Source of the DNA: Candidatus Enterovibrio escicola | GTDB lineage: Bacteria; Pseudomonadota; Gammaproteobacteria; Enterobacterales; Vibrionaceae | DNA length: 64,000 bases | Direction of reading: 5' to 3' | NCBI RefSeq assembly: GCF_002464935.1 | Contig: NZ_NBYY01000016.1 | Coordinates: 1-64,000, forward strand | Shown: piece after piece, positions 48,321-62,410 of the stretch | How positions within the stretch are numbered: position 1 is the stretch's first letter | Layout of the letters: every line of letters starts with the position of its first letter | Made by a program: the position numbers and the translations under genes | Notes under the pieces: model-generated | What the model saw: only the letters and a program-made list of their open reading frames with translations | The model's database searches: none | What the model was told of the DNA's origin: nothing

Positions 48321-49268
48321 CTAAATGCCCAAGTCGAAATCTGATCGTTTGAAATAAACTATTGACTGCATAAGGACTTGGATTTGAATAACTTAGACGC
48401 TGTTTTCGTCGATGTCGACGACTTCTGCCAGACTTTCCTCCCTATGCAGGGAGGAATACCTAATATCTTCCGGTGTCAAACAAAGAAACAAGCCTTCTCA
48501 CCTCTCAGTTAGCGAGGTTCTGACGATAGTTATAACTTTCTATCAATCGGGATATTGAGACTTCAAAACCTATTACATCCACTTTGTTTACCGCTACCTC
48601 ACCAACGAATTTCCTAAACTATTCAGCTACACGCAAATGTTCAAGTTCATGCAAGGTGTTCTGGTTTCGCTTTACTCTTACCTCACTCACCGTCAGATAA
48701 GGCTGACAGGGATTGCCTTCGTTGATTCGTCCAAGTTATAGGTTTGTCAAAACCTACTCATTATCAAACATTAGGTTTTTAAAGGTACCTCAAAGCGAGA
48801 AAAAGGAATGATGGGAATTCTACGGCTTCAAATTACACCTTATTATTAATGACCATTGTGGCATTCTCTTAGTCAAAGTGACAACGGCTAACGTGGATGA
48901 TAAAAATCCTGTATCGGAAATGGCTGATGAATTTTGGGGTGTTTATACGGAGATAAAGGTTATATCTCTGATCCATTGAAGCGGAAACCTGCAGACAAGG
49001 GAGTGATACTGATAACGGGTGTGAAAAAGAATATGAAACCCAAAGTGATGAAACTTTGGGATTACCTGATGCTCCGGAAACGATTTATTATCGAAACCGT
49101 TTTTGACTAACTAAAAAATATATCCCAAATCGAGCATTCGCGGTACCATTATTGTATCAGATTTATGGTCAACTTGCTAGCGGGGCTCATCACGTATTCA
49201 TTTCAACTAAATAAGTAGCACTTCAAGATAACTCGGCTTGATAAGCGAGCGTTTATGCAGATCTTAGG
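48297..49268 (+). mobile_element. IS982-family element overlapping the yejM 3' end
   Basis: The left terminus is eroded (AACGTCGCGAATAAGAA for AACCTGAGCTGCGCATAAG) and overlaps the last codons of yejM. The body has the usual transposase pieces in several frames (VDVDDFCQTFL-type start near 48400, [10 protein letters not shown] near 49085). The right terminus reads TTATGCAGATCTTAGG. Near full length, broken. Confidence 0.82.
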
Positions 49269-49269
49269 C

Positions 49270-49810
49270 TAGGTTAACTTAGGTGGTGATAACCTCATGA
49301 GGAAACACATCAACGGCAAGATGAAGATTGCGCCAGATATGCCATGTATCCTTACCGTGTTTACGCGTTTTCCGTTCGCCTTCACCGTATACTTTTAGAT
49401 TTGTGGCATTAATAACAACGTGGGAGAGAGCTCCTCGACTCGGCAAATAGTACTTAACTTCTACTGTCTTCGAATGCATTACTAATGCAAGTATATTTCG
49501 GGGATTCCAACGGGACATTCATCAACGTAAAAACTGAATTGAAAAATACTTTTCACTATCAGTTCCGTTGCAATCGCGGCATCAGAAAATATAAACCCAC
49601 TGCCACGATGACCGTGATGCATTAGACAATGCTAAACCTTGATGGCAATATCATCTATCCAAAAAGTGACTGAACCACGGTTTACTAATGCTTGATTATA
49701 TTTTTCCAAATTGCTAATTTTGTGACCTTTCATATAATTACCCCTGCTTAACTCCATGATTATCTAATCGTAGAAATTGCGATTAATTCAGATATTTGAG
49801 AAAAAATGCC
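49270..49810 (-). mobile_element. IS5-family (IS903-like) element, 5' two thirds
   Basis: The frame 49518-49279 encodes KTVEVKYYLPSRGALSHVVI, NATNLKVYGEGERKTRKHGK and IWRNLHLAVDVFPHEVITT, including the first catalytic Asp region (VVINATNLKVYGEGE, where Asp is replaced by Asn). The N-terminal part follows to the right in broken frames, with the outer end TTCAGATATTTGAG at about 49788-49801. Cut on the left at the IS982 right end. Confidence 0.83.
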
Positions 49811-49951
49811 CTACCACGTTGTCAGTCATGCTGACAAGTCTTCCCACTTATTAAATATATGCACTTTATAAAGTAATCAAAAACGTAACCCACGACCTGC
49901 CTGCTTTTTATTCAACCCGTTTAATTCCATAGAGTAAATCAAGAAATATAA

Positions 49952-49980
49952 TTGACACCGTATTCTAGTACTCGTAGCAT
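49952..49980 (+). promoter_or_regulatory. Promoter of the tRNA-Pro gene
   Basis: TTGACA (49952-49957), a 17-bp spacer and TAGCAT (49975-49980), with the tRNA starting 15 bases further on. A consensus -35 box with optimal spacing. Confidence 0.6.
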
Positions 49981-49994
49981 ACTTCTAATAGTAT

Positions 49995-50071
49995 CGGTCT
50001 GTAGCGCAGCTTGGTAGCGCACTGTCATGGGGTGGCAGGGGTCAAGAGTTCAAATCTCTTCAGACCGACCA
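49995..50071 (+). tRNA. tRNA-Pro(GGG)
   Basis: 77 bases including an encoded CCA. The acceptor stem is CGGTCTG/CAGACCG, the D-arm GCGC-AGCTTGGTA-GCGC, the anticodon arm CTGTC-ATGGGGT-GGCAG with GGG at positions 34-36, and the T-arm AAGAG-TTCAAAT-CTCTT. All stems pair. It resembles E. coli proL in sequence, with the same anticodon. Its 3' half serves as the attachment site of the adjacent island. Confidence 0.95.
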
Positions 50072-50075
50072 TTAT
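50023..50075 (+). other. Island attachment site, left (attL), within tRNA-Pro
   Basis: 53 bases from the anticodon arm to four bases past the CCA are repeated at 62181-62233 with a single mismatch (A versus G in the T-loop TTC-R-A). The left copy keeps the tRNA gene complete. Confidence 0.92.
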
Positions 50076-50078
50076 TTA

Positions 50079-50109
50079 GCCTGTAATTCAATGAGTTACG
50101 GGCTTTTTT
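50079..50109 (+). terminator. Rho-independent terminator after tRNA-Pro
   Basis: GCCTGTAA and TTACGGGC pair (one G-U) around a 9-base loop, followed by TTTTTTA. It lies just on the island side of the attachment core. Confidence 0.75.
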
Positions 50110-50198
50110 ATGTCTAGTAAAAATAGCGGCACCAAAACTGTACCAAAATTCAGGTCATTGGTGCGCAGCTCGCGGACCTGTATTTTAGTCCCTAATTC

Positions 50199-50893
50199 CT
50201 ATCTCTGCAGCGGGGACTTGCACCCACTCAACGTGCCCATCTTTGTATACTTTTGTGCTCTTAGCATTGGTGTGAGCAGCGCGGGCTTGTGAGGGTCATG
50301 ACCAGCATTGTCATACAAGTGAATTGCTAGGCCTCGTATTTCGTGAAACGTCAGCCTGCACTCTGCGGCCACTTTCTTTTTCACACCTGCTAGGTTTAGA
50401 TATTTCGAGAACGCACGGATTAAGTATTTACGGTTAATTTGAGTGAGGTGATCGCAGTGCTTACTCACTTCATTGCTAATTCGTGACGGCATACGGTGAA
50501 CAACATACTTATAGCGAACATTATCATGGCTTTCATTAATGATTTTGAACAGTGACGGCGTCACAGGTATAACAACGCGGCTTGCTTCCTTATGTTGAAC
50601 CTTCTGACGATGGATCCGCAAATAACCACTCACCAGCAAACCACCTTCACTCACTGGCTCGGCTAACAACTGCACGTCAGTATAACGAACAGAGCATATT
50701 TCGTTTACCGCATGCGTAGTTTCCAGCGCCAAATCCATTGCTGTTCGTAACCACGAAGGAGAAACGATCCAAATGGCGCGGTATTCGTCCAACGTAAGGC
50801 GCTGACGTTGTTTTTTCTCCTTGGGTTTACATACTTTTCCCAAATAAGGTTTTTTGCCGCGACGTTGATGCACAGCATCTGCGAATGTACTCA
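50199..50893 (-). pseudogene. int: Island tyrosine integrase, truncated at both ends
   Basis: The frame read towards the tRNA contains KKQRQRLTLDEYRAIW, a first-Arg region with the Arg apparently lost (LETTHAVNEICSVRY, where GQRRSE is usual), LRIHRQKVQHKEASRVVIPV, and the second box LTFHEIRGLAIHLYDNAG (H-X-X-R present). After NAGHDPHKPALL the frame shifts and the Tyr region is not in frame. Its N-terminus runs into the terminase remnant, so a deletion has fused the two. Position next to the attachment site supports its being the island's own integrase. Confidence 0.75.
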
Positions 50894-51639
50894 TTTTCTG
50901 GTAGCTGCTTGCGCATAGACAACATGAAATCTTCATTCAAGATCCCAAACTCAATACCCAAGTAACAATCAACGGTAGGCAAACAGGTGTATTCACCGGA
51001 ATCAATCAGACCGCTCAACGTATCCGCGCCCTTGAATACGCCGGTGATACGAATTTGTGGTTTGTTGATGGAGGTTTTGCTGGCACCAAGACGACGACTT
51101 GAGCCCATGATCAGCAAGAAACGACCGAACAAACGATCAGCATCTAAATCATCCACTTCTTCTAGCGATGCCCACGTTAAGTCGCCACCATCGACGTTGG
51201 CCATAATGCCGTATGCACGGGCTTTTGAATGGTTGGCAAATTCGTAATAGGTATCCGCCATCTACTTGCGGCCAGATTTGTATGCAACATATCCGCTCGA
51301 TACATCAGAGCGGCGCATTGCATCAAGGTGGTAACCAAGGTTTACCAATGATTGGGCTTCACGCGGCGTGCCAATACCGCCTTCTTGGTCTCCATGAATA
51401 GCATTGTGTTCGAGCAGATACATCTCTTTCACCGCCGTTTTTCCTGTTCGGCGGCAGCTATTATCCACAGTGTTATCGTGGCTGTCCATTTCTTCCATTT
51501 TGAGCAACTGCTCGGGATCCAATTTGACGTTATGAATGTGCTTGTGCCACATGCTGTGGTTACCGGCATAACGCTGGATCTCTATTTCTGCTAGGCTTTG
51601 AATTTCAATGCGCTGTTTGGCGCTAATGCGATCAGCCAT
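50885..51639 (-). pseudogene. Phage terminase large subunit, interrupted and truncated
   Basis: The frame starts at 51639 (MADRISAKQRIEIQSLAEIE), has a Walker A-like SCRRTGKTAVKEMYLLEHN near residue 61, meets an amber codon at 51262-51264, and continues in frame ADTYYEFANHSKARAYGIMA, then WASLEEVDDLDADRLFGRFL with a Walker B-like acidic pair, then PQIRITGVFKGADTL and MLSMRKQLPENEYIRR. It ends at the fusion with the integrase near 50885, losing the nuclease domain. The layout (ATPase motifs, position after a small-subunit-like gene) supports terminase of a tailed phage; the precise phage group is not established. Confidence 0.62.
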
Positions 51640-52523
51640 GTGAGTCTACCTCGGTATAATCGGCATCCTTTACACCTTGTTCTTGGTGGTGCTCAATTAA
51701 GATATCGTCATTACTCACTTTCTTGCGGGAACGTGAAATCATGTCACGTAATCCACTCATTTGGTCGGCCATCTTACGCTGATATTCAAGCACCGATTCA
51801 CGTTCATCGTCCTTCTCAATGGTACGTCCCAGCTCAATGCCTTGGTCGGTCTGTACTTTTGGCGTCATGTTGAGATCAGCCAGTGAGAGGTTGTTTTTGC
51901 TCAGCATATCGAGCATCGGTTTGAGCAACGGGTGCGCTTTAATCTCTTCAATCGTCTGCTCTTGACCGTTATTATCTTTGTACTTACCGATATGAAAGCC
52001 ACCTTCTTTCTTGAAGTCCTACACCGAATTTCTCAGCGCAACACCATCCACCACAATGGTCTGCATCATGTCTTGGAAGATAGCAACCATGTTGGCCTGA
52101 TTGATGGTATGTAATTCGGTGAGTTTGCTGGGATCACCAGATTGAAACGCGATCAGGTGTTGCATCATCAATTCCGTTCGCATGGTGCACGCCGGTTGGG
52201 TGGAGCAGTACGCGTGGTCAACGTCGCAAGGGGCACATTGCGGATATTTACCAAGGAGAGCGGGGAAAAACATGGCTGTTTTGGCGTTGGCACCCTGCTT
52301 CATCGCATTAAATCGACTGAGTGAGCGGTTGTTATAACCGTCAAGATTAGCCGAAGACTTGGCTTTCCCCTAGGTGGTTCTCGGCCCCGTCGCGTTGAGC
52401 AACGCGCAAAACTGCCCGACTTCCCAATTCACTTGCTGCACTTCACGCTGACAATTGCCGCAGGTGCCGAAATAGCGAAACGTGCCCAGCTTCTTTTATC
52501 AGGATAGGTTTGATCTCATTCAT
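51632..52523 (-). pseudogene. Phage terminase small-subunit-like protein, with two ambers and a frameshift
   Basis: Reconstructed from ATG 52523: MNEIKPILIK, frameshift, KLGTFRYFGTCGNCQREVQQ, VNWEVGQFCALLNATGPRTT, amber (52370-52372), GKAKSSANLDGYNNRSLSRF, a cysteine-rich stretch (GKYPQCAPCDVDHAYCSTQP), then amber (52019-52021) and DFKKEGGFHIGKYKDNNGQE to a charged C-terminus. About 297 codons. Its stop overlaps the start of the terminase large subunit by 8 bases. The zinc-like CGNC and CAPC-C motifs suggest a DNA-binding role. Small-subunit assignment is by position, not by recognised sequence. Confidence 0.45.
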
Positions 52524-52532
52524 GGCTTAACG

Positions 52533-53092
52533 CTAATGGATCTTGCCGTATTGAGAGAGGGTGTCACGCGATGCCAGCGCATGAAAAAAACTACTCAATG
52601 ATGAATTCGACAAATCACGCCCAAGCCAAACCTGCAGCTGATTGCGCACCCAACTTTTACTCGCATTTTGGGTCAGCAATTCCACGATCAAGATGTTTTG
52701 CAGGTGCACCATCCAAACTACCAGAGACGGCAGATAAATTTGATTTTGAGCACGAGAGGGAATGAAGGAAACACCATGTAGCACCCGCAAAATAAAGCGT
52801 TATTGCTCGGCGCTGCAGGTGACATAAATCTCAAAGAAAGGTTTGATCAGCCGACACCCATCCAGCCACTCTTCAAAACTGTCCGCATCAAGGGCATCCA
52901 GCTCCGCCGTAAAGTGCGGCACCACAATTCGCAGCTGGCGTTCCTTTCTCAACGTTTCGAGGCGTCGCCATAACTACAACCACAGTTCAGGACCAAGGTA
53001 ATCGGCAATCATCTTCCAGTGGGAAGAAAGTTTCAAACAAGAAACCGCTGCTGCCAACTCTTGGGCACTTAGTGAATATTCTAATTTGGTGC
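52533..53092 (-). pseudogene. Phage protein of unknown function, two nonsense codons
   Basis: Reading leftwards: LEYSLSAQELAAAVSCLKLS, SHWKMIADYLGPELWL, amber (52974-52976), LWRRLETLRKERQLRIVVPH, then CSAEQ, ochre (52800-52802), RFILRVLHGVSFIPSR and on to LSQYGKIH. About 185 codons, no start codon found at the right end. It ends 10 bases before the next phage gene. No family recognised. Confidence 0.4.
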
Positions 53093-53108
53093 AGTTATCT
53101 AGGTACCT

Positions 53109-53129
53109 ACCTCCCCCTGTGGGGGAGGT
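53109..53129. terminator. Strong hairpin in the island, bidirectional terminator candidate
   Basis: ACCTCCCCC-TGT-GGGGGAGGT is a perfect 9-bp GC-rich stem with a 3-base loop, followed on the plus strand by GTGTTTTCC. It lies at the upstream end of the packaging genes. Confidence 0.55.
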
Positions 53130-53325
53130 GTGTTTTCCTATGCCGAGCCCCCACCCCTAGAGATGAGACCTGATGATCATGAAGACAAAGGGGGATTTCT
53201 AAGATTGAGCTGCGCATTATACAAACCTCCGTGAATTCTCAACCGAGTAATCACAAGAGCTCGGGCACCTCAGTAGATAGATGAACTGCACATATTGTGT
53301 TTATGTGCAGTTCAAATAGATAAAT

Positions 53326-53514
53326 TTAGTGTTCGCCTTCCATCATCTGCAAGACCTCAACCAATTTACCATCGATAGATGGTAATAAGAAAAACAACGA
53401 TTCGCCAGTAAAGTTCTCAAGAGGCCCGTCTTGTTGCCCAGCCAGTACTGAGAGACCATGGATCATAAGATGAGCTTCGTTAATAAGGGAGTGTGAATCA
53501 CTAGAAGTTGGCAT
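53326..53514 (-). CDS. Small phage-type protein, unknown function
   Basis: 62 residues from ATG 53514, preceded by AAAAAGGGGC. It reads MPTSSDSHSLINEAHLMIHG, LSVLAGQQDGPLENFTGESL and ends LVEVLQMMEGEH. It is acidic and has no recognised domain. The frame is open upstream to 53643 (VGWARLPRQAVSFLMVVLTL), a segment that resembles the leaders of small regulatory phage proteins, so a longer form is possible. Intact. Confidence 0.5.
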   Translation of the reverse strand: MPTSSDSHSLINEAHLMIHGLSVLAGQQDGPLENFTGESLFFLLPSIDGKLVEVLQMMEGEH

Positions 53515-53639
53515 AGGAGCCCCTTTTTGATGGTTAATATCACCACTCAGAGGTGTTAATCGCTGGGGTGGTGAGCTGAACAAGGTTAACACTACCATCA
53601 AAAAGGAAACGGCCTGCCGAGGCAGCCTCGCCCAACCCA

Positions 53640-53948
53640 CCATAATTCAGATGTGCTAAAGCTTACGCATAAAAAACCAGCAAAATGCTGGCGACTACGC
53701 GCCTTTTTGATGTTCGGAGTGTTAATTCCAGCACTGGATTTTGCCAGTACACCGCCAGTGTAAGCTGCTCATTTTATTACTGTCAAGCACTGAATACATT
53801 ACGTGACCAATATCACGCCTTAGGGTTTGATCGTTATATTTAACAGTTCCCTAACATCGCAAGAATACCCGCCAGCGCCCAGTATATCTGATATGTGGAA
53901 ATAAGTTAAAGACAGGTTATATGTGTTCTAAGAGTTAAAACGCCTCTA
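53640..53948. other. Island intergenic region left of the CRISPR repeat
   Basis: About 300 bp without a gene. It contains a perfect hairpin CCAGCA-AAA-TGCTGG near 53677-53691 and two phrases built on CGCCTTTTTGATG/CCCCTTTTTGATG. There is no second CRISPR repeat at the expected 60-base step from 53949. Confidence 0.4.
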
Positions 53949-53976
53949 TTTCTAAGCTGCCTGTGCGGCAGTGAAG
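53949..53976 (-). CRISPR. Orphan type I-F CRISPR repeat (single unit, no spacers)
   Basis: 28 bases, plus-strand start TTTCTAAGCTGCC, then a 5-base loop region TGTGC-type and GGCAGTGAAG. On the minus strand it is the standard I-F repeat, beginning CTTCACTGCCG and ending GGCAGCTTAGAAA, with the CTGCC/GGCAG hairpin that Cas6f recognises. It is in the same orientation as the adjacent cas genes, 138 bp beyond the cas6f stop. No other repeat follows or precedes at about 60 bases, so the array has been reduced to one repeat. Confidence 0.85.
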
Positions 53977-54113
53977 GGTAGATAATATAGCTGTAGCGCT
54001 TATTTTTAAAGAGCTGGGATGAAATTAGGCGAAAAAATAGGGTTTTTCCGCTTAATTTAAACCATTAAAAATCAATAGGTTAAGAATGTGCTAAAAAATA
54101 TGGTATTAGACAA
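53977..54113 (-). promoter_or_regulatory. Probable CRISPR leader
   Basis: The AT-rich stretch between cas6f and the repeat (minus strand TTTTTAATGGTTTAAATTAA and CCCTATTTTTTCGCC) is in the position and has the composition of a type I-F leader. No experimental marker can be seen. Confidence 0.45.
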
Positions 54114-54668
54114 TTAAAACCAAGGAACAGTGGCTTCTATGCTTAATCCATAGCTGAAAAAGTGACCCGTGGTGGGTTTATCTTGCTGTTCTCCGCGTTG
54201 AAAAAAAAGCCGGATCTCTTGATTTGTGGACTGGCTCTTTATTTGAATGAAGGGCAAAGAGAGTCGCTTTTGCTTAAAATCTGGAATTTTGTGCAGAGCC
54301 TCATCTTCAATCAACCAACCTTTAAATATGGCGCGTCTACGGATGTTTGGAGGGCTTTTCTGTTGTACTCGAAACGTGGTGTGATACCCTTGTATGTTAT
54401 CTGGCACGGGAGAGATATTATTGACCGATGTGTAATCGCGTAAACCTTTAAGCCATGGTTGCGTCATCAAGCGATCCAGTGTATGACGAGTACCGTGAAG
54501 GCGTAATACCTCACCCAGCATTGTTCCATATTTTGGAAAACTGACGACCACGTCACCACCGGCGTGTTCTACCAAAGCGCGATGCAGTTTCGCGAACAAA
54601 TTGTTTATCAGTGCGGGACTGGAGATTTCCGCATCAGGAAGAACAACAATATCTATGTAGTTATCCAT
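54114..54668 (-). CDS. cas6f: Type I-F CRISPR RNA endonuclease Cas6f (Csy4)
   Basis: Cas6f cuts the repeat hairpin to make crRNAs and stays bound to the 3' end in the Csy complex. The 184-residue frame (ATG 54668) follows P. aeruginosa Csy4: DNYIDIVVLPDAEISSPALI, LFAKLHRALVEH with the catalytic-type His near 29, FRVQQKSPPNIRRRAI with the Arg-rich helix that holds the RNA stem, LPFIQIKSQSTNQEIRLFFQ with the conserved Ser, and the C-terminal VPWF. Start is two bases after the cas7f stop. It is the only cas gene with an uninterrupted frame here. Confidence 0.93.
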   Translation of the reverse strand: MDNYIDIVVLPDAEISSPALINNLFAKLHRALVEHAGGDVVVSFPKYGTMLGEVLRLHGTRHTLDRLMTQPWLKGLRDYTSVNNISPVPDNIQGYHTTFRVQQKSPPNIRRRAIFKGWLIEDEALHKIPDFKQKRLSLPFIQIKSQSTNQEIRLFFQRGEQQDKPTTGHFFSYGLSIEATVPWF

Positions 54669-54670
54669 GA

Positions 54671-55512
54671 TCACTTTCCGAAGACCCCGCCGCGAATCAG
54701 CATAGCGATGACGTAGTGTTGTTGTTCGTTCGATGGCGCTTGTCCTTTTAAGTTCCAGTTCTTGAGTAAGGTATAGAAATCTGTTTTATCTTTTGGTTTT
54801 CTGTAAGCAAAGCCGCGATTGGTCACGCTTCCATAGGGTTCAATGGCGATAGGGACAAACTCGCTAGCGTCAGTTCGCCTAAGCAGCTAAAAGCGTCCAC
54901 TTTGATTAACGTCGGTTTTTCACCCATTAACCCTTGTTCGATAGCGGCTACCAGTTGGGACAGTTGGTCATTACTTTGGTTGAAATCTCGAAGTGAAAAT
55001 TATTGTGCATTAAATACCCATTGTTTTTCGGCATGTGAAATACGCACTTCTACTTGCTCTGCGCCTACACGATTCCGCCATAGGAATCGACCGTTTGCAA
55101 GATTGGTTGCAAAGCGAAGCGCCAGCGCACTGAAGCCATTTTCCTGAACATATTGAGAAATCAGGCCAGCAAGGGCTTTTTAGTAATCGGGATTGTTGCA
55201 TGTTGAGGGAACCGACAAATCACCTATAACACGCAGACTAAAGTTGACTTTTAGTGTGTCTGCATTGAACGGCAGTGCCGCATTATCGACGGTTTGAAGG
55301 TTAGCTTTGTCTACTTTGACATCAATTTTACTGGCTGCCGCACCCTTTACACGGTTTGAGATGGTGCCTCTGACGGATTTCTCAATCACATTCACTGCTT
55401 TCCATTGTGTTGTATCGGCGCGTTGCTCCCAGTTGCCTGATGACAATAGCGCATCTGAGCAGGCAAGCGTGGATTCGAATGCAAGTACCAAAGGGGTAGT
55501 TAAGTTTGTCAT
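54671..55512 (-). pseudogene. cas7f: Type I-F Cas7f (Csy3) backbone subunit
   Basis: From ATG 55512: [61 protein letters not shown], ochre, then GLISQYVQENGFSALALRFA, TNLANGRFLWRNRVGAEQVE, ochre (55000-55002), FSLRDFNQSNDQLSQLV, and finally in another frame [20 protein letters not shown] and [18 protein letters not shown]. All are hallmark segments of the canonical I-F1 Csy3. Two stops, a frameshift and an internal deletion of roughly 60 codons near 54,860 disable it. It binds crRNA in six copies in the intact complex. Confidence 0.9.
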
Positions 55513-55524
55513 GGGATTATTTCC

Positions 55525-56451
55525 TTATCCTAAAAAATCATCGTCTAGATTAATAGGATCAACGTTTGTGGAGAGTTGCGATTGGGTATGGCAAACATAA
55601 AATGGATCACGGTATGTGTGCTACCACAAGGCTTGCTGCATCGACTCTAGGCGGCTCGGGCTCCCGACCCATTCACCGACGCTGTAAATCGCCTCAACAA
55701 AACTCACGGGGGGGTCATTGTATCGCGCGTTCGCAACGTCGCCCTTCCCGTATGTCGGTGCGATCTTTTTATAGCCTATTTGAATCGGCACCAAGTAACC
55801 TTCGAAGGGCGATTTAACGCGTTGCCATTGAACCTTCAGGTTTTCTTTGTGCTCTTCTTCCGATGAGGAAATGTCTGTTGCTTGGTACTTGAGCGCAGAG
55901 AAATCAAGCCAGTTTTGTAGGTTAGTATCGTTGCTTTGTTAATTTTATTGTTCGAGGTAATGGCTGCGATCAATCAAGATAAATCCGGGCAGTAGACGCC
56001 GTAGTAGCTTCGTGTGAGGTTCATCCGTGAAGTAGCAAGAACCAATATCAGTAATCGAACCGCCTGCGAGTTTATTGCGTTCCGCCAATCGCTTCACGAA
56101 ATCAGATTGTGCGCGTTCCAATTCGTCTGTTACGCGATTAACGCCGTTGCACTCAATGATCAACGACACCGTAAGGTGCATGCGGCCCTCTTCTACAATC
56201 GGTGCTGTTTTTCCTTTTTTGGTCAATGGATTGCGAGTGAGGGAAAAAGCAAATGGTTCGGACGCATTCTCTCTATGGGCGTGTACTTGATGCTGGTTGC
56301 AAACGATAGCGCATGAATTAAGGTTAAATCCGAATTCACTGCGCACGGCGTGACGCGATAGGGCATGAACAAAACCCAAAAAATGGCTAACGGCTGGAAA
56401 TCCCCATGTCATGCCAGAAATGGCGTTGGCGTTGCCAAATGGCGATATCAT
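55525..56451 (-). pseudogene. cas5f: Type I-F Cas5f (Csy2)
   Basis: The frame 56451-55945 reads GNANAISGMTWGFPAVSHFL, GFVHALSRHAVRSEFGF, SLTRNPLTKKGKTAPIVEEG and LLRRLLPGFILIDRSHYLEQ, all Csy2 signatures (NANAISSPLTWGFPS, LTRNP, IVEEGR, TRRLLPGF). The rest follows after a frameshift near 55940: LVPIQIGYKKIAPTYGKGDV, ANARYNDPPVSFVEAIYSVG, and NLDDDFLG at the end. The first 15 or so residues before NANAIS are absent, and its start is fused with the end of cas8f. Confidence 0.9.
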
Positions 56452-57483
56452 TAATCACTTGCTCGCCAATTTGTTCAACCATGCGCTGAATGTATTTGCA
56501 GCGTCGAAGGTTGCTCGGTTTGTGGAGAATACAAAGCATAAAATCAGCAATGCGTTTAACGGTTCGTTCCGTGTTGAACAGCAAGGACGAATGGTTGAAC
56601 AGCTGGTTATTGTCTTTAGGCTGCTATTGTTGATTACGCCAAGTTAGTGGGCGAGTATCGAGTAAGTAGGTCCTTCCGCCTCGACCGCTATTGAGCTGTG
56701 ACACGTTCAGTGGGTTAAAGCCACCCCTGATGGTGACGGCGAGATTGGGGTACGCACCAATAGGCTTTTACAAGGCATGTTGGCTTTTTTTGCGTCCCTC
56801 CCTGCCTTCATTTCTTGGCTGAAACTACTGGGGTTGATCTCACTGTATAGTGCTTGCGAAAACGACGATGAGTACATAGGAGCAAGAAGATGATATTCGC
56901 CTTGCGCGACAGGAAAGTACACTTGTTTAGCCAAGGTGTGGCTGCTAGGCGCTGTACTTTGCAACGCTTGTTTTAACCCATAATGCCATTGTTGCAACTG
57001 CTCTGGCGTTTTGGACAAGGATGACAGCGGTTCAATACTGTCTTCCTGCAAGTACGCTAATAAGCTCTTTCCAGTGTCATCTTTGAGTTGCAATAAACGG
57101 GCAACATATATCTTGTCTACAGGGCCGACTGCATCAACTGCGGGATTATCGATAGAAAATATATCTACGTAACGCGGGTTGCTACCCAAGTTTTCTGCCC
57201 ACACACTACTGCCTTTGGCAGCACTGTGACTGAACTTGATGGCATGCGTCGCCATGCTGATTTTCTCCGCGCGGTTTGCTGCGCTGTCTACCCAGTGGGT
57301 AACGGTAAAATCAAATTCTAGTTTGGCGACTTTGGCTGCTAGGTTAGCGTCAAAGATATCGGCATCTTCAGCTGATGTAATTTTTGCTTTTTCTTTGTCG
57401 CATTCTTTTTCGAGCGCATCTACTTCCACTGCACGTTTATCGGCTATGTATTGCTCGATCTGTTTGGTTAACGTTGTGGGCAT
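56452..57483 (-). pseudogene. cas8f: Type I-F Cas8f (Csy1) large subunit, truncated
   Basis: From 57483: LTKQIEQYIADKRAVEVDAL, a coiled stretch, THWVDSAANRAEKISMATHA, DDTGKSLLAYLQEDSIEPLS, SSHTLAKQVYFPVAQGEYHL and LLAPMYSSSFSQALYSEI, matching Csy1 (HSLAKQLYFPL...YHLLAPL). After a frameshift near 56730 the next frame gives YPNLAVTIRGGFNPLNVSQL, NSGRGGRTYLLDTRPLTWR, amber (56624-56626), and more. The C-terminal helical domain runs into cas5f. In the intact complex Cas8f recognises the target PAM. Confidence 0.88.
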
Positions 57484-59532: not shown

Positions 59533-59796
59533 CTAGAAGGAAGGCGCTTCCCGCTCAATTTCGATAAATAGTACATCACCTTCATGTATCAGGGTCACAT
59601 CCACACCGTCACCCTTGATCACATACCCCGCATATCGGTTGAATTGAATCACATCCCCCACCACAATTTCCCTAACCTTCAGGCCAACGGCAACCACTGT
59701 GGCTTTGCTTGATGGTGAACTAGGAATAAAGAAGCCTTTTTGTTCCTGTTCCTCTGCTTTTCTTTGAATCGCAATATAATCATGCAACGGTTTTAT
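59533..59796 (-). CDS. GroES-like co-chaperonin, start codon apparently mutated
   Basis: The frame encodes (KPL)HDYIAIQRKAEEQEQKGF, FIPSSPSSKATVVAVGLKVR, VGDVIQFNRYAGYVIKGDGV and LIHEGDVLFIEIE. This is the GroES fold: a mobile loop region, the V-AVG strand, GD.I.F..YAG, and the C-terminal EGDVL.I. The natural start by family is M-K-P-L-H-D-Y, but the codon at 59796-59794 is ATA. In context the recombinase end would have been AGATGA with ATG overlapping its stop; a G to A change keeps a stop (TAA) but removes the ATG. TTG at 59787 could start an 84-residue protein. It is not the housekeeping groES. Confidence 0.7.
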   Translation of the reverse strand: MKPLHDYIAIQRKAEEQEQKGFFIPSSPSSKATVVAVGLKVREIVVGDVIQFNRYAGYVIKGDGVDVTLIHEGDVLFIEIEREAPSF

Positions 59797-60818
59797 CTAC
59801 ACACTGCACCGCCTTTTTTCATGGCCTTCAACAGTTCGCTCACGGGTGTATTCATCTTGCCCAGAGGATTGCCCTTATCAATCACCGCTGTCATTTTCTT
59901 CATTGCTAAGTGGGTGTATATCTCGGAGGTTTTAGAGTCTGCATGCCCATTAATGCTTGTATCTGCAGTGTGGCAGTATCCGACTCAGTCAATTCGGTAC
60001 CAAATAAATGGCAGATTGCATGAGCATGGGCATGTTCCTCTGGTAGTCCGGCAATAAGCGCATAACGTTTGATCATTCGATCTATCGCCCTTGGTGACAT
60101 CCGTCGGTTTTCACCTCTATGCTCCCACTCGGGAACATGACGATTTCTTAAATTGATGAACAACACCTGATCGCCATTCATGAGTAAGCTGTCTATGTAA
60201 TCCAATTCTTTATGTCCAAGATACGCCTGCAGCAATAGCATTGCTTCACTAGGAACAGGCACCAACCTTTCTTTGTTTCCCTTTTCCAATACCCGAATTG
60301 CCAACCGGTCAGCGTTGTCATATTTGTACCAAATAAGCTGCGATTCATTCAGCCCACACATACCACTGACACGAAAACCGCACCCCATCATCAACGCTAA
60401 AATTGCGCTATCACAAATACCTGATAAAGAATCAAGATCAGGCTGCATCAATAGTGCCTCAGCACTATCCAGGCCCATAAACCGTGGTAATCGCCGACCA
60501 ATTTTTGGATAAACAAGATCATCTGACGGGTTTGAACTGATTAACCGGCGTTTAGACAACCATCGATAAAAACCTCTACTCGCAGCCACTGCCACTTTGC
60601 GTGATGCAGCGGCATAGCCCTTGCGATGCATCCAACCACCGGAAAAATTTTCTAACTTACTCAACGTTGCATCGAGATATTCACCATTAAGGAAAACCCC
60701 TAGCTGTTCTAAGTATTTGCGGTATTTCTTTACCGTTCTAGCGCTGCTAGTTCTCGTTTTCTTTCTTCCAAACAAGGAACTGATCTACATGTTTTAGATC
60801 AACGTATTCAATTATCAT
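59793..60818 (-). pseudogene. XerD-like tyrosine recombinase
   Basis: The frame 60775-59906 shows TVKKYRKYLEQLGVFLNGEY, MGCGFRVSGMCGLNESQL with the first Arg, KGNKERLVPVPSEAMLLLQA and HAHAICHLFGTELTESDT where the usual H-X-X-R is H-A-I-C. A frameshift near 59945 breaks LMG from HADSKTSEIYTHLAMKKMTA, which continues to the natural stop at 59793 (KAMKKGGAVCR). The N-terminus probably began at ATG 60818 (MIIEYVDLKHVDQFLVWKKE) and is cut off by another frameshift and amber near 60755. Loss of the catalytic Arg and the frameshift before the Tyr make it inactive. Confidence 0.85.
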
Positions 60819-61175: not shown

Positions 61176-61486
61176 GATAAAAAGTGATGAAGCCAGTAAT
61201 AACGCGGGTTAGAACAAAATAGCCCACAAGTCCACAACTCAGAACAATATCCTGCGGTCTCAGAGTTGCGCCCAGACGCTCGCCCCGCCATTTTATTTTT
61301 CAAGCTAAAAACCTATTTTAGCGCCAGAAACCTCTCAGGGGGTACGGGAAAATATACAACACTGGATGGAAAGCCGCCTTTCTTATGATCGTGTTGCGGT
61401 GTTAAAGGATCGGTAGCGAGAGAACGCCATCTTAAGAGTTTTCCAGCGAGATAAGAATGCGCATAGACACTATAGAAGAAATAACT

Positions 61487-62050
61487 ATGCGCACGTACCC
61501 AACATCACGCTCAATTGAGCAGATCGTTAACGAGATATTGGAAAAGGAAGGCCACCGTTCTAATGATGCCAACGACATGGGCGGTGATACCACTTGGGAA
61601 ATTACCGAAGTAACAGCAAGGAATAACGGATACACCGGGCCAATGTCCGAACTGACCCAAAGCATTACATGCAAAATCTACACCAAACAGTACATCTCAG
61701 CGCCTCGATTTGACGATATTCACGCAGTAAGCAGCGTTCTTTGTGAAGAAGTGATTGATACAGGCATTAACATGGGTCAGTCAACCGCAGCCAAGTTCCT
61801 GCAACGTTGGCTCAATGTGTACAACAACCAACAAACGCTTTATCCAGACCTAGTCGTTGATGGCCACATTGGCATAGCAACAGTCAGTTCACTGAAAGCG
61901 TTCCTGAAACATCGTGGTATAGAAGGTGAATTGGTGCTGTAGCAGTCTCTCAACTGTAGCCAAGGCGCAAGATACTTAGATATCTCAGAAGCCAGAAAAC
62001 GCAACGAAACCTTTACCTATGGATGGCTGAAAAACCGCGTCGGAATGTAG
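61487..62050 (+). pseudogene. Phage endolysin (GH108-type muramidase) with one amber codon
   Basis: The frame encodes SIEQIVNEILEKEGHRSNDA, MGGDTTWEITEVTARNNGYT, IYTKQYISAPRFDDI, GQSTAAKFLQRWLNVYNNQQ and YPDLVVDGHIGIATVSSLKA: the GH108 layout with the EGG-type catalytic Glu (here EKEGH) and a C-terminal peptidoglycan-binding domain. An amber codon at 61940-61942 is followed in frame by QSLNCSQGARYLDISEARKR, NETFTYGWLKNRVGM and a natural stop at 62050. The start could also be ATG 61457. The read-through form would have the usual length of about 188 residues; the truncated form (152) keeps the catalytic part. Confidence 0.75.
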
Positions 62051-62180: not shown

Positions 62181-62233
62181 TGTCATGGGGTGGCAGGGGT
62201 CAAGAGTTCGAATCTCTTCAGACCGACCATTAT
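62181..62233 (+). other. Island attachment site, right (attR): tRNA-Pro 3' half
   Basis: 52 of 53 bases equal 50023-50075. It lacks the acceptor 5' strand and D-arm, so it is not a second tRNA gene. A 12-bp palindrome ATAAGCGCTTAT lies about 80 bp to its left, inside the island. Confidence 0.92.
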
Positions 62234-62235
62234 AT

Positions 62236-62410
62236 ATAGCTAGATCAAAATAAATTGGCATAATCCATAACAATTATGGCTTGCTCTGGAACTTTCGGAA
62301 GTAAATCTTGTTCGATCCATACGTGAAATACCTCCGCATTCACACTTACAATTACTATGTTAAGCGTTAAAAAATATAATTGAGATAGCACGCCAATGGC
62401 GTTAACTCTT
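62236..62410 (-). mobile_element. IS630-family fragment
   Basis: The minus strand reads VNAEVFHVWIEQDLLPKVPE and QAIIVMDYA-type codons, the same segment as 25090-25200 on the plus strand. It begins two bases from the attR repeat. Confidence 0.55.

Follow-up and report, generated by a model that had tools for sequence, protein, structure and literature searches.

The type I-F remnant and its relative in Enterovibrio norvegicus

The DNA analysed here (referred to as the window) is a stretch of 64,000 nucleotides of Candidatus Enterovibrio escacola, a light-organ symbiont of anglerfish (contig NZ_NBYY01000016.1, positions 1 to 64,000, filed under the spelling escicola). Between positions 53949 and 57483, its minus strand carries pieces of Csy1, Csy2, Csy3 and Csy4 that Pfam and NCBIfam models recognise in the order of a type I-F CRISPR-Cas system (CRISPR, clustered regularly interspaced short palindromic repeats), followed by a leader and one repeat. 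The corresponding locus of Enterovibrio norvegicus FF-33 served for codon alignment. The features are as follows:

56436..57483, minus strand: cas8f (csy1) pseudogene with a 1-nt deletion, one stop and a deleted 3' end (Pfam, NCBIfam, FF-33 codon alignment)
55525..56435, minus strand: cas5f (csy2) pseudogene with its start deleted and three stops (Pfam, NCBIfam, FF-33 codon alignment)
54671..55512, minus strand: cas7f (csy3) pseudogene with two stops and one 142-bp deletion (Pfam, NCBIfam, FF-33 codon alignment)
54114..54668, minus strand: cas6f (csy4) open reading frame with no stop or indel (PF09618, expect value (E) 3.3e-59; TIGR02563; 82% amino acid identity to FF-33)
53977..54113, minus strand: leader of the collapsed array, 137 bp, aligning with the leader of FF-33 array 2 and carrying a weak promoter-like site (consensus match) beside the repeat
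53949..53976, minus strand: single type I-F CRISPR repeat, 28 bp (Rfam CRISPR-DR4, 47.2 bits, E 6.5e-8), identical to the repeats of both FF-33 arrays

Nine lesions were counted across cas8f, cas5f and cas7f and none in cas6f, whose product aligns end to end with solved Csy4 proteins. One of the nine, a deletion of 332 bp (256 + 76), removes the end of cas8f together with the start of cas5f. An earlier note, made from the sequence alone, had described three broken genes in I-F order on the minus strand and a clean cas6f frame, and both descriptions are borne out by the family models and the codon alignment. It had also placed one 28-bp repeat 138 bp past cas6f; the repeat is there, at a measured distance of 137 bp, and no other was found in the window with up to seven mismatches allowed, which agrees with its view of a zero-spacer array at this locus.

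The FF-33 locus is arranged as an array (23 repeats), cas1, cas2-3, cas8f, cas5f, cas7f, cas6f, leader and a second array (23 repeats), and the window operon is orthologous to it. Identity in the codon alignment is 83.8% for cas8f, 82.4% for cas5f, 87.3% for cas7f and 81.6% for cas6f, and the window leader matches that of array 2 at 74% over 159 columns, repeat included. The two loci share gene order, separate cas8f and cas5f, 82-87% DNA identity, the 28-bp repeat and a similar leader; they differ in that FF-33 has cas1, cas2-3 and two 23-repeat arrays, whereas the window has three broken genes and one repeat. FF-33 was the only relative returned when GTDB contigs were scanned with Cas6f (82% identity), a scan that detects close relatives only and may omit very near records. 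Since its cas2-3 occupies two overlapping reading frames (L017:3387-6727), the FF-33 system is not claimed here as a working one; the two frames could mean that the reference, too, is defective, or that a sequencing error is present. A Csy4 match was found in 7 of 18 genomes of the genus examined, the 2.1-Mb genome G016 being among those with none. Within the family, a leader-repeat query matched at least 77 of 329 genomes at E <= 0.001, and many of the matches listed extend hardly past the repeat; this search scored two candidates per genome and missed relics of the symbiont's own genome, so that its counts are lower bounds.

As for subtype, the separate order cas8f-cas5f-cas7f-cas6f of type I-F1 is present, as pseudogenes except for cas6f, the separateness of cas8f and cas5f being judged from the FF-33 ortholog because the 332-bp deletion spans that border in the window. 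The other marks of an I-F1 system, cas1 with a fused cas2-3 and an array of 28-bp repeats with spacers of about 32 bp, are reduced to a cas1 fragment elsewhere in the genome, no match for cas2-3, one repeat in the window and one 32-nt spacer in another leader copy (C4, below). The window locus is thus a remnant of an I-F1 system and not a functioning member. Type I-F3 systems (CAST, CRISPR-associated transposons) have a cas8-cas5 fusion, TniQ and Tn7-like genes, and type I-F2 systems have no cas8f and carry variant cas5 and cas7. Assignment to I-F3 was rejected because cas8f and cas5f are separate in the FF-33 ortholog and no TniQ or Tns family was recognised among the neighbouring frames tested (a subset of all frames), and assignment to I-F2 because cas8f is present and the Csy2 and Csy3 models match.

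Neither cas1 nor cas2-3 had a match anywhere in the 64-kb window, as the earlier note had stated. When the whole genome (2,645,619 bases in 39 contigs) was searched, a broken cas1 fragment was identified on contig C6, with an internal deletion and joined to another gene; it is 81-85% identical to FF-33 cas1. For cas2-3 there was no family-model match in the whole genome, the same search being positive in 4 of 14 control genomes; one protein check translated the FF-33 gene in a single frame and was blind to the larger part of this two-frame gene. As FF-33 has both genes directly upstream of the same operon and a cas1 fragment persists elsewhere, cas1 and cas2-3 were most likely lost or split off. 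Of the two histories that the earlier note had offered, an adaptation-free mobile module or one that lost these genes, the second is therefore the one favoured.

The first would be a module of I-F3-like or orphan type that never had cas1 and cas2-3 and was brought in by a tRNA-Pro element. It would fit the position of the operon inside a tRNA-Pro island (described below) and the start of homology to FF-33 at 11 bp ahead of cas8f, which puts the cut at a gene border. However, the separate cas8f and cas5f of the FF-33 ortholog (as in I-F1), the FF-33-like cas1 fragment in the same genome and the lack of a recognised TniQ or Tn7-type family among the neighbouring frames tested make it very unlikely. 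The cas1 fragment may derive from another I-F locus. A beta-propeller-like gene, so read from its translation, was also noticed at L011:8135-8968 and L012:2520-3998, and its C6 copy continues in frame into the cas1 fragment.

Decay in two genomes and the state of cas6f

The locus is also present, from a second genome, on an IMG/VR contig (L099; UViG_2901292590_000001), with 98-99% identity across aligned blocks of window positions 48924-57483 (99.0-99.3% in three large blocks and 98.1% in one of 216 bp). Six of the nine window lesions are common to both: the 1-nt deletion in cas8f, the deletion of 332 bp, all three stops of cas5f and one of the two in cas7f. Because a second genome shares them, the lesions are not sequencing or assembly errors. 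Two of the other three, the stop in cas8f and the deletion of 142 bp in cas7f, occur in the window alone, and the remaining window stop in cas7f falls inside a 100-bp deletion of L099. Private to L099 are a cas8f stop, a 1-nt deletion in cas5f and a cas7f stop in a part of the gene that is absent from the window. With stops or deletions private to each of two near-identical genomes, the decay is real and ongoing, and the decaying interference operon proposed in the earlier note is confirmed. The single repeat and about 1.5 kb past it are the same in both.

The open frame of cas6f raises the question of selection. Pairwise ratios of non-synonymous to synonymous substitution rates (dN/dS) against FF-33 are 0.123 for cas6f (95% interval 0.066-0.204), 0.129 for cas8f, 0.076 for cas5f and 0.103 for cas7f, values that mostly reflect the time preceding decay. 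Between L099 and the window, cas6f has seven substitutions in 555 bp; all six changed sense codons are non-synonymous, and the seventh change is from stop to stop. The corresponding count for the three broken genes is 17 non-synonymous among 24 changed codons. Assuming a neutral non-synonymous to synonymous ratio of 2.9, the probability of six out of six is about 0.0003 at a dN/dS of 0.12, 0.01 at 0.3 and 0.17 at neutrality. At the lesion rate of its neighbours, cas6f would have escaped any lesion with a probability of 0.25, or 0.17 with large deletions counted, so that chance suffices for the open frame. It seems that cas6f is open by chance, with no sign of purifying selection in these six changes, which are few; the suggestion of the earlier note that Cas6f is maintained by chance fits this comparison. 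Retention by selection for another job, for example processing of an unrelated hairpin RNA, could account for the fact that cas6f alone of the four genes has an open frame, in both genomes, and for the full-length match of its product to solved Csy4 proteins, yet the exclusively non-synonymous codon changes, a dN/dS resembling that of the broken neighbours and an open frame explicable without selection leave this most improbable.

Leader relics across the genome

A sequence model of the cas6f tail, leader and repeat was used to search the genome. Seven strong leader copies were found on seven contigs (C4, C9, C10, C11, C12, C20 and C21, where C11 is the window), the next two matches having E 6e-4. 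The six copies outside the window lie on stretches L012, L015, L013, L072, L071 and L014 (for C4, C9, C10, C12, C20 and C21, respectively), and four of them keep a cas6f tail, which is absent from C10 and C12. These scattered relics are new, and they are the unexpected element in an otherwise mostly ordinary account. The earlier note's single repeat is correct for the window, while the genome as a whole holds the six further leader relics, and the repeat itself occurs at five places with up to three mismatches. With up to seven mismatches, each fetched relic stretch has one repeat, except C12, which has none complete. C4 keeps one 32-nt spacer, and none of the seven relics has two complete repeats.

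The relics fall into two lineages, the first (C4, C10, C11) being 91-94% identical and the second (C9, C12, C20, C21) 82-91%; the lineages are about 69-77% identical to each other and 71-76% to FF-33. The two lineages of cas6f tail may point, as far as such short sequences can tell, to an ancestor with two or more I-F loci. Downstream, homology stops at the repeat end in C10 and C11. In C4 the spacer is kept, and a second repeat begins but breaks off after 10 nt. About 30 nt are common to C9, C20 and C21, and the 86-bp end of an abundant element follows; in C12 the repeat ends after 17 nt, and this element lies on the opposite side of the relic. There are five distinct downstream junctions and none leaves two complete repeats. 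The probability that all five would fall within 70 bp of the repeat start is 3.8e-7, which is a rough indication only: the breaks are assumed to be uniform and independent over an array of 1349 bp, and leader and repeat were themselves the means of finding the relics. The abundant element (L071:5270-5640, last 86 bp of the reverse strand) abuts four relics and has at least 37 further matches among those listed, one of them beside C12. A stretch of 1520 bp is common to C20 and C21; it has transposase-like frames, read as IS256-like (IS, insertion sequence), on either side. For the C4 spacer, the only full one left, the phage collection gave no match at E up to 1. The leader likewise had no phage match, and three short plasmid matches were found for it. 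An exact end overlap of 20-399 bp, as a sign of circularity, was not detected in C4 or C10.

It is highly probable that the window holds the remains of an ordinary type I-F1 system of Ca. Enterovibrio escacola, with a collapsed array and pieces scattered by transposons. Once spacers were no longer gained or needed, the array would have shrunk by recombination between identical repeats until one leader-side repeat remained, and transposon activity would then have broken up and copied the pieces, giving rise to the seven leader relics. No normal surveillance complex can be formed from the locus, and it has ceased to protect the cell. It has been described that the genome of Ca. Enterovibrio escacola MJ02, light-organ symbiont of the anglerfish M. 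johnsonii, has 974 pseudogenes and that transposable-element genes form 31% of its coding sequences (PMC6020299); at such a load, copying and breaking of CRISPR remnants are expected. Recombination of the leader-side with the terminal repeat, leaving one repeat, is named as a possible outcome in a review that cites evidence of natural collapse for Legionella I-F arrays (PMC8047081). The Legionella pneumophila arrays are likewise reported to have come down to a solitary repeat (PMC8047081, PMC7056967). There, a working system can refill the array, whereas the symbiont has a broken or missing Cas1 and effector set, and its reduction recurs at several scattered relics.

Several points weigh against this account. 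Collapse by recombination is the proposed route, and deletion driven by IS elements would give a similar result; transposition as the route of copying rests on adjacency of the abundant element at four of the seven relics. The repeat is identical in the three copies of the first lineage while their leaders vary. Between L099 and the window, leader and repeat show no substitution in 163 aligned bases, with about 1.5 expected at 0.9%, and differ by small leader indels. Such constancy could hint at constraint, weakly so and with a bias, as the copies were found through the repeat. In addition, cas6f is free of lesions in both genomes, and the whole-genome DNA search with the FF-33 cas2-3 gene, which had no match, lacked a positive control of its own, so that its empty answer alone is uninformative.

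The relics may also be compared with RNA anti-CRISPRs (Racr, solitary repeat units), lone repeats in mobile elements away from cas genes. Under this explanation, the leader and first repeat, now at seven sites amid phage, plasmid-like and transposon sequence, would have spread as mobile-element copies whose transcript acts as a decoy, binding Cas6f and Cas7f and blocking I-F immunity. Several of the copies do lie by mobile genes (a phage baseplate gene at C4, a ParB-like gene at C21, and transposase-like and relaxase-like frames, as read from translations, near C10), and the leader has its weak promoter-like site. C10, a leader copy with no cas6f sequence, may fit the definition of such a unit. 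The window copy does not, as it adjoins its own cas genes, with cas6f beside it. Several relics have cas6f 3' sequence upstream (in C4, 87 bp of it; in C4 and C9, translations resembling Cas6f), which is what broken I-F loci should leave. Furthermore, cas7f, which encodes a proposed target, is broken, and the repeat is damaged in three of the seven relics (a stem pair is broken in C9 and C20, and C12 is shortened). No phage in the collection matched the leader, and of the 17 stretches of viral contigs that have this repeat, one alone has the leader too; it is the same locus (L099). Spread as a decoy RNA is accordingly given very little probability; if true, it would show how RNA anti-CRISPRs arise from broken CRISPR loci. 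The relics resemble published Racr units (PMC10651486) in that a promoter-like sequence precedes a single I-F repeat and mobile genes lie nearby, and differ in deriving from cas6f-leader-array loci, one of them beside cas genes. CreTA-type use of the repeat was set aside, the effector genes being broken. Separately, IMG/VR viral contigs L091 (4584-4611 and 4810-4837), L094, L098, L100 and L105 have one I-F repeat, or two opposed, in the fetched stretch and are candidate solitary repeat units.

Taken as the remains of an I-F1 system, and compared with a more complete relative and between two nearly identical genomes, the locus documents the death of CRISPR-Cas in a symbiont undergoing genome reduction. 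Its adaptation and nuclease genes are lost or in fragments, the effectors are broken, one leader-side repeat is left, and cas6f is open but drifting. The seven relics suggest that dying arrays may often end as a leader with one repeat, which offers a useful null model where lone repeats are proposed as anti-CRISPR RNAs. Within the library searched, no paper combined Enterovibrio escacola with CRISPR and none of the works listed reported this locus, and the main texts of two symbiont genome papers contain no word beginning with CRISPR.

The tRNA-Pro island

About 12.2 kb of decayed prophage-like sequence, flanked on each side by a copy of the 3' end of a tRNA-Pro gene, form the island in which the I-F module lies. 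The tRNA-Pro island named in the earlier note is supported by a 49-bp direct repeat at both ends. The following features were identified:

49995..50071, plus strand: tRNA-Pro (GGG), probable island attachment site
50030..50078, plus strand: left copy of the 49-bp direct repeat (tRNA-Pro 3' end), probable left attachment site (attL), 95.9% identical to 62188-62236
50199..50936, minus strand: integrase-like gene adjoining the tRNA (PF00589 E 7.7e-5, below the Pfam cut-off; PHROG integrase E 3.3e-8)
50858..51582, minus strand: DNA like a phage DNA-packaging gene annotated Gp17 (65% identity to Microcystis phage vB_MaeS-yong1)
53564..53647, minus strand: C4 antisense RNA (Rfam RF01695, 63.7 bits)
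53671..53750, minus strand: isrK RNA (Rfam RF01394, 55.7 bits)
59906..60775, minus strand: second phage-type integrase within the island (PF00589 E 6.1e-16)
61457..61942, plus strand: phage endolysin-like gene by the right island end (PHROG 315 endolysin, E 6.2e-27)
62188..62236, plus strand: right copy of the direct repeat, probable right attachment site (attR), from repeat comparison

Pieces of IS200/IS605 elements also lie within the island. The module may have come with the prophage or may have been moved in by rearrangement. I-F systems on Vibrio genomic islands (PMC6360697) are similarly modules within islands, one beside a tRNA gene and several with an integrase; the window locus differs from them in that it is a cluster of pseudogenes, has a single repeat and lies in prophage-like DNA that has decayed. 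Positions 53564-53750, comprising the C4 antisense RNA and isrK beside the collapsed array, match five Vibrio phage records, four of which have V. cyclitrophicus as host. A GroES (Cpn10)-like fragment was also identified within the island, at window positions 59533-59787.

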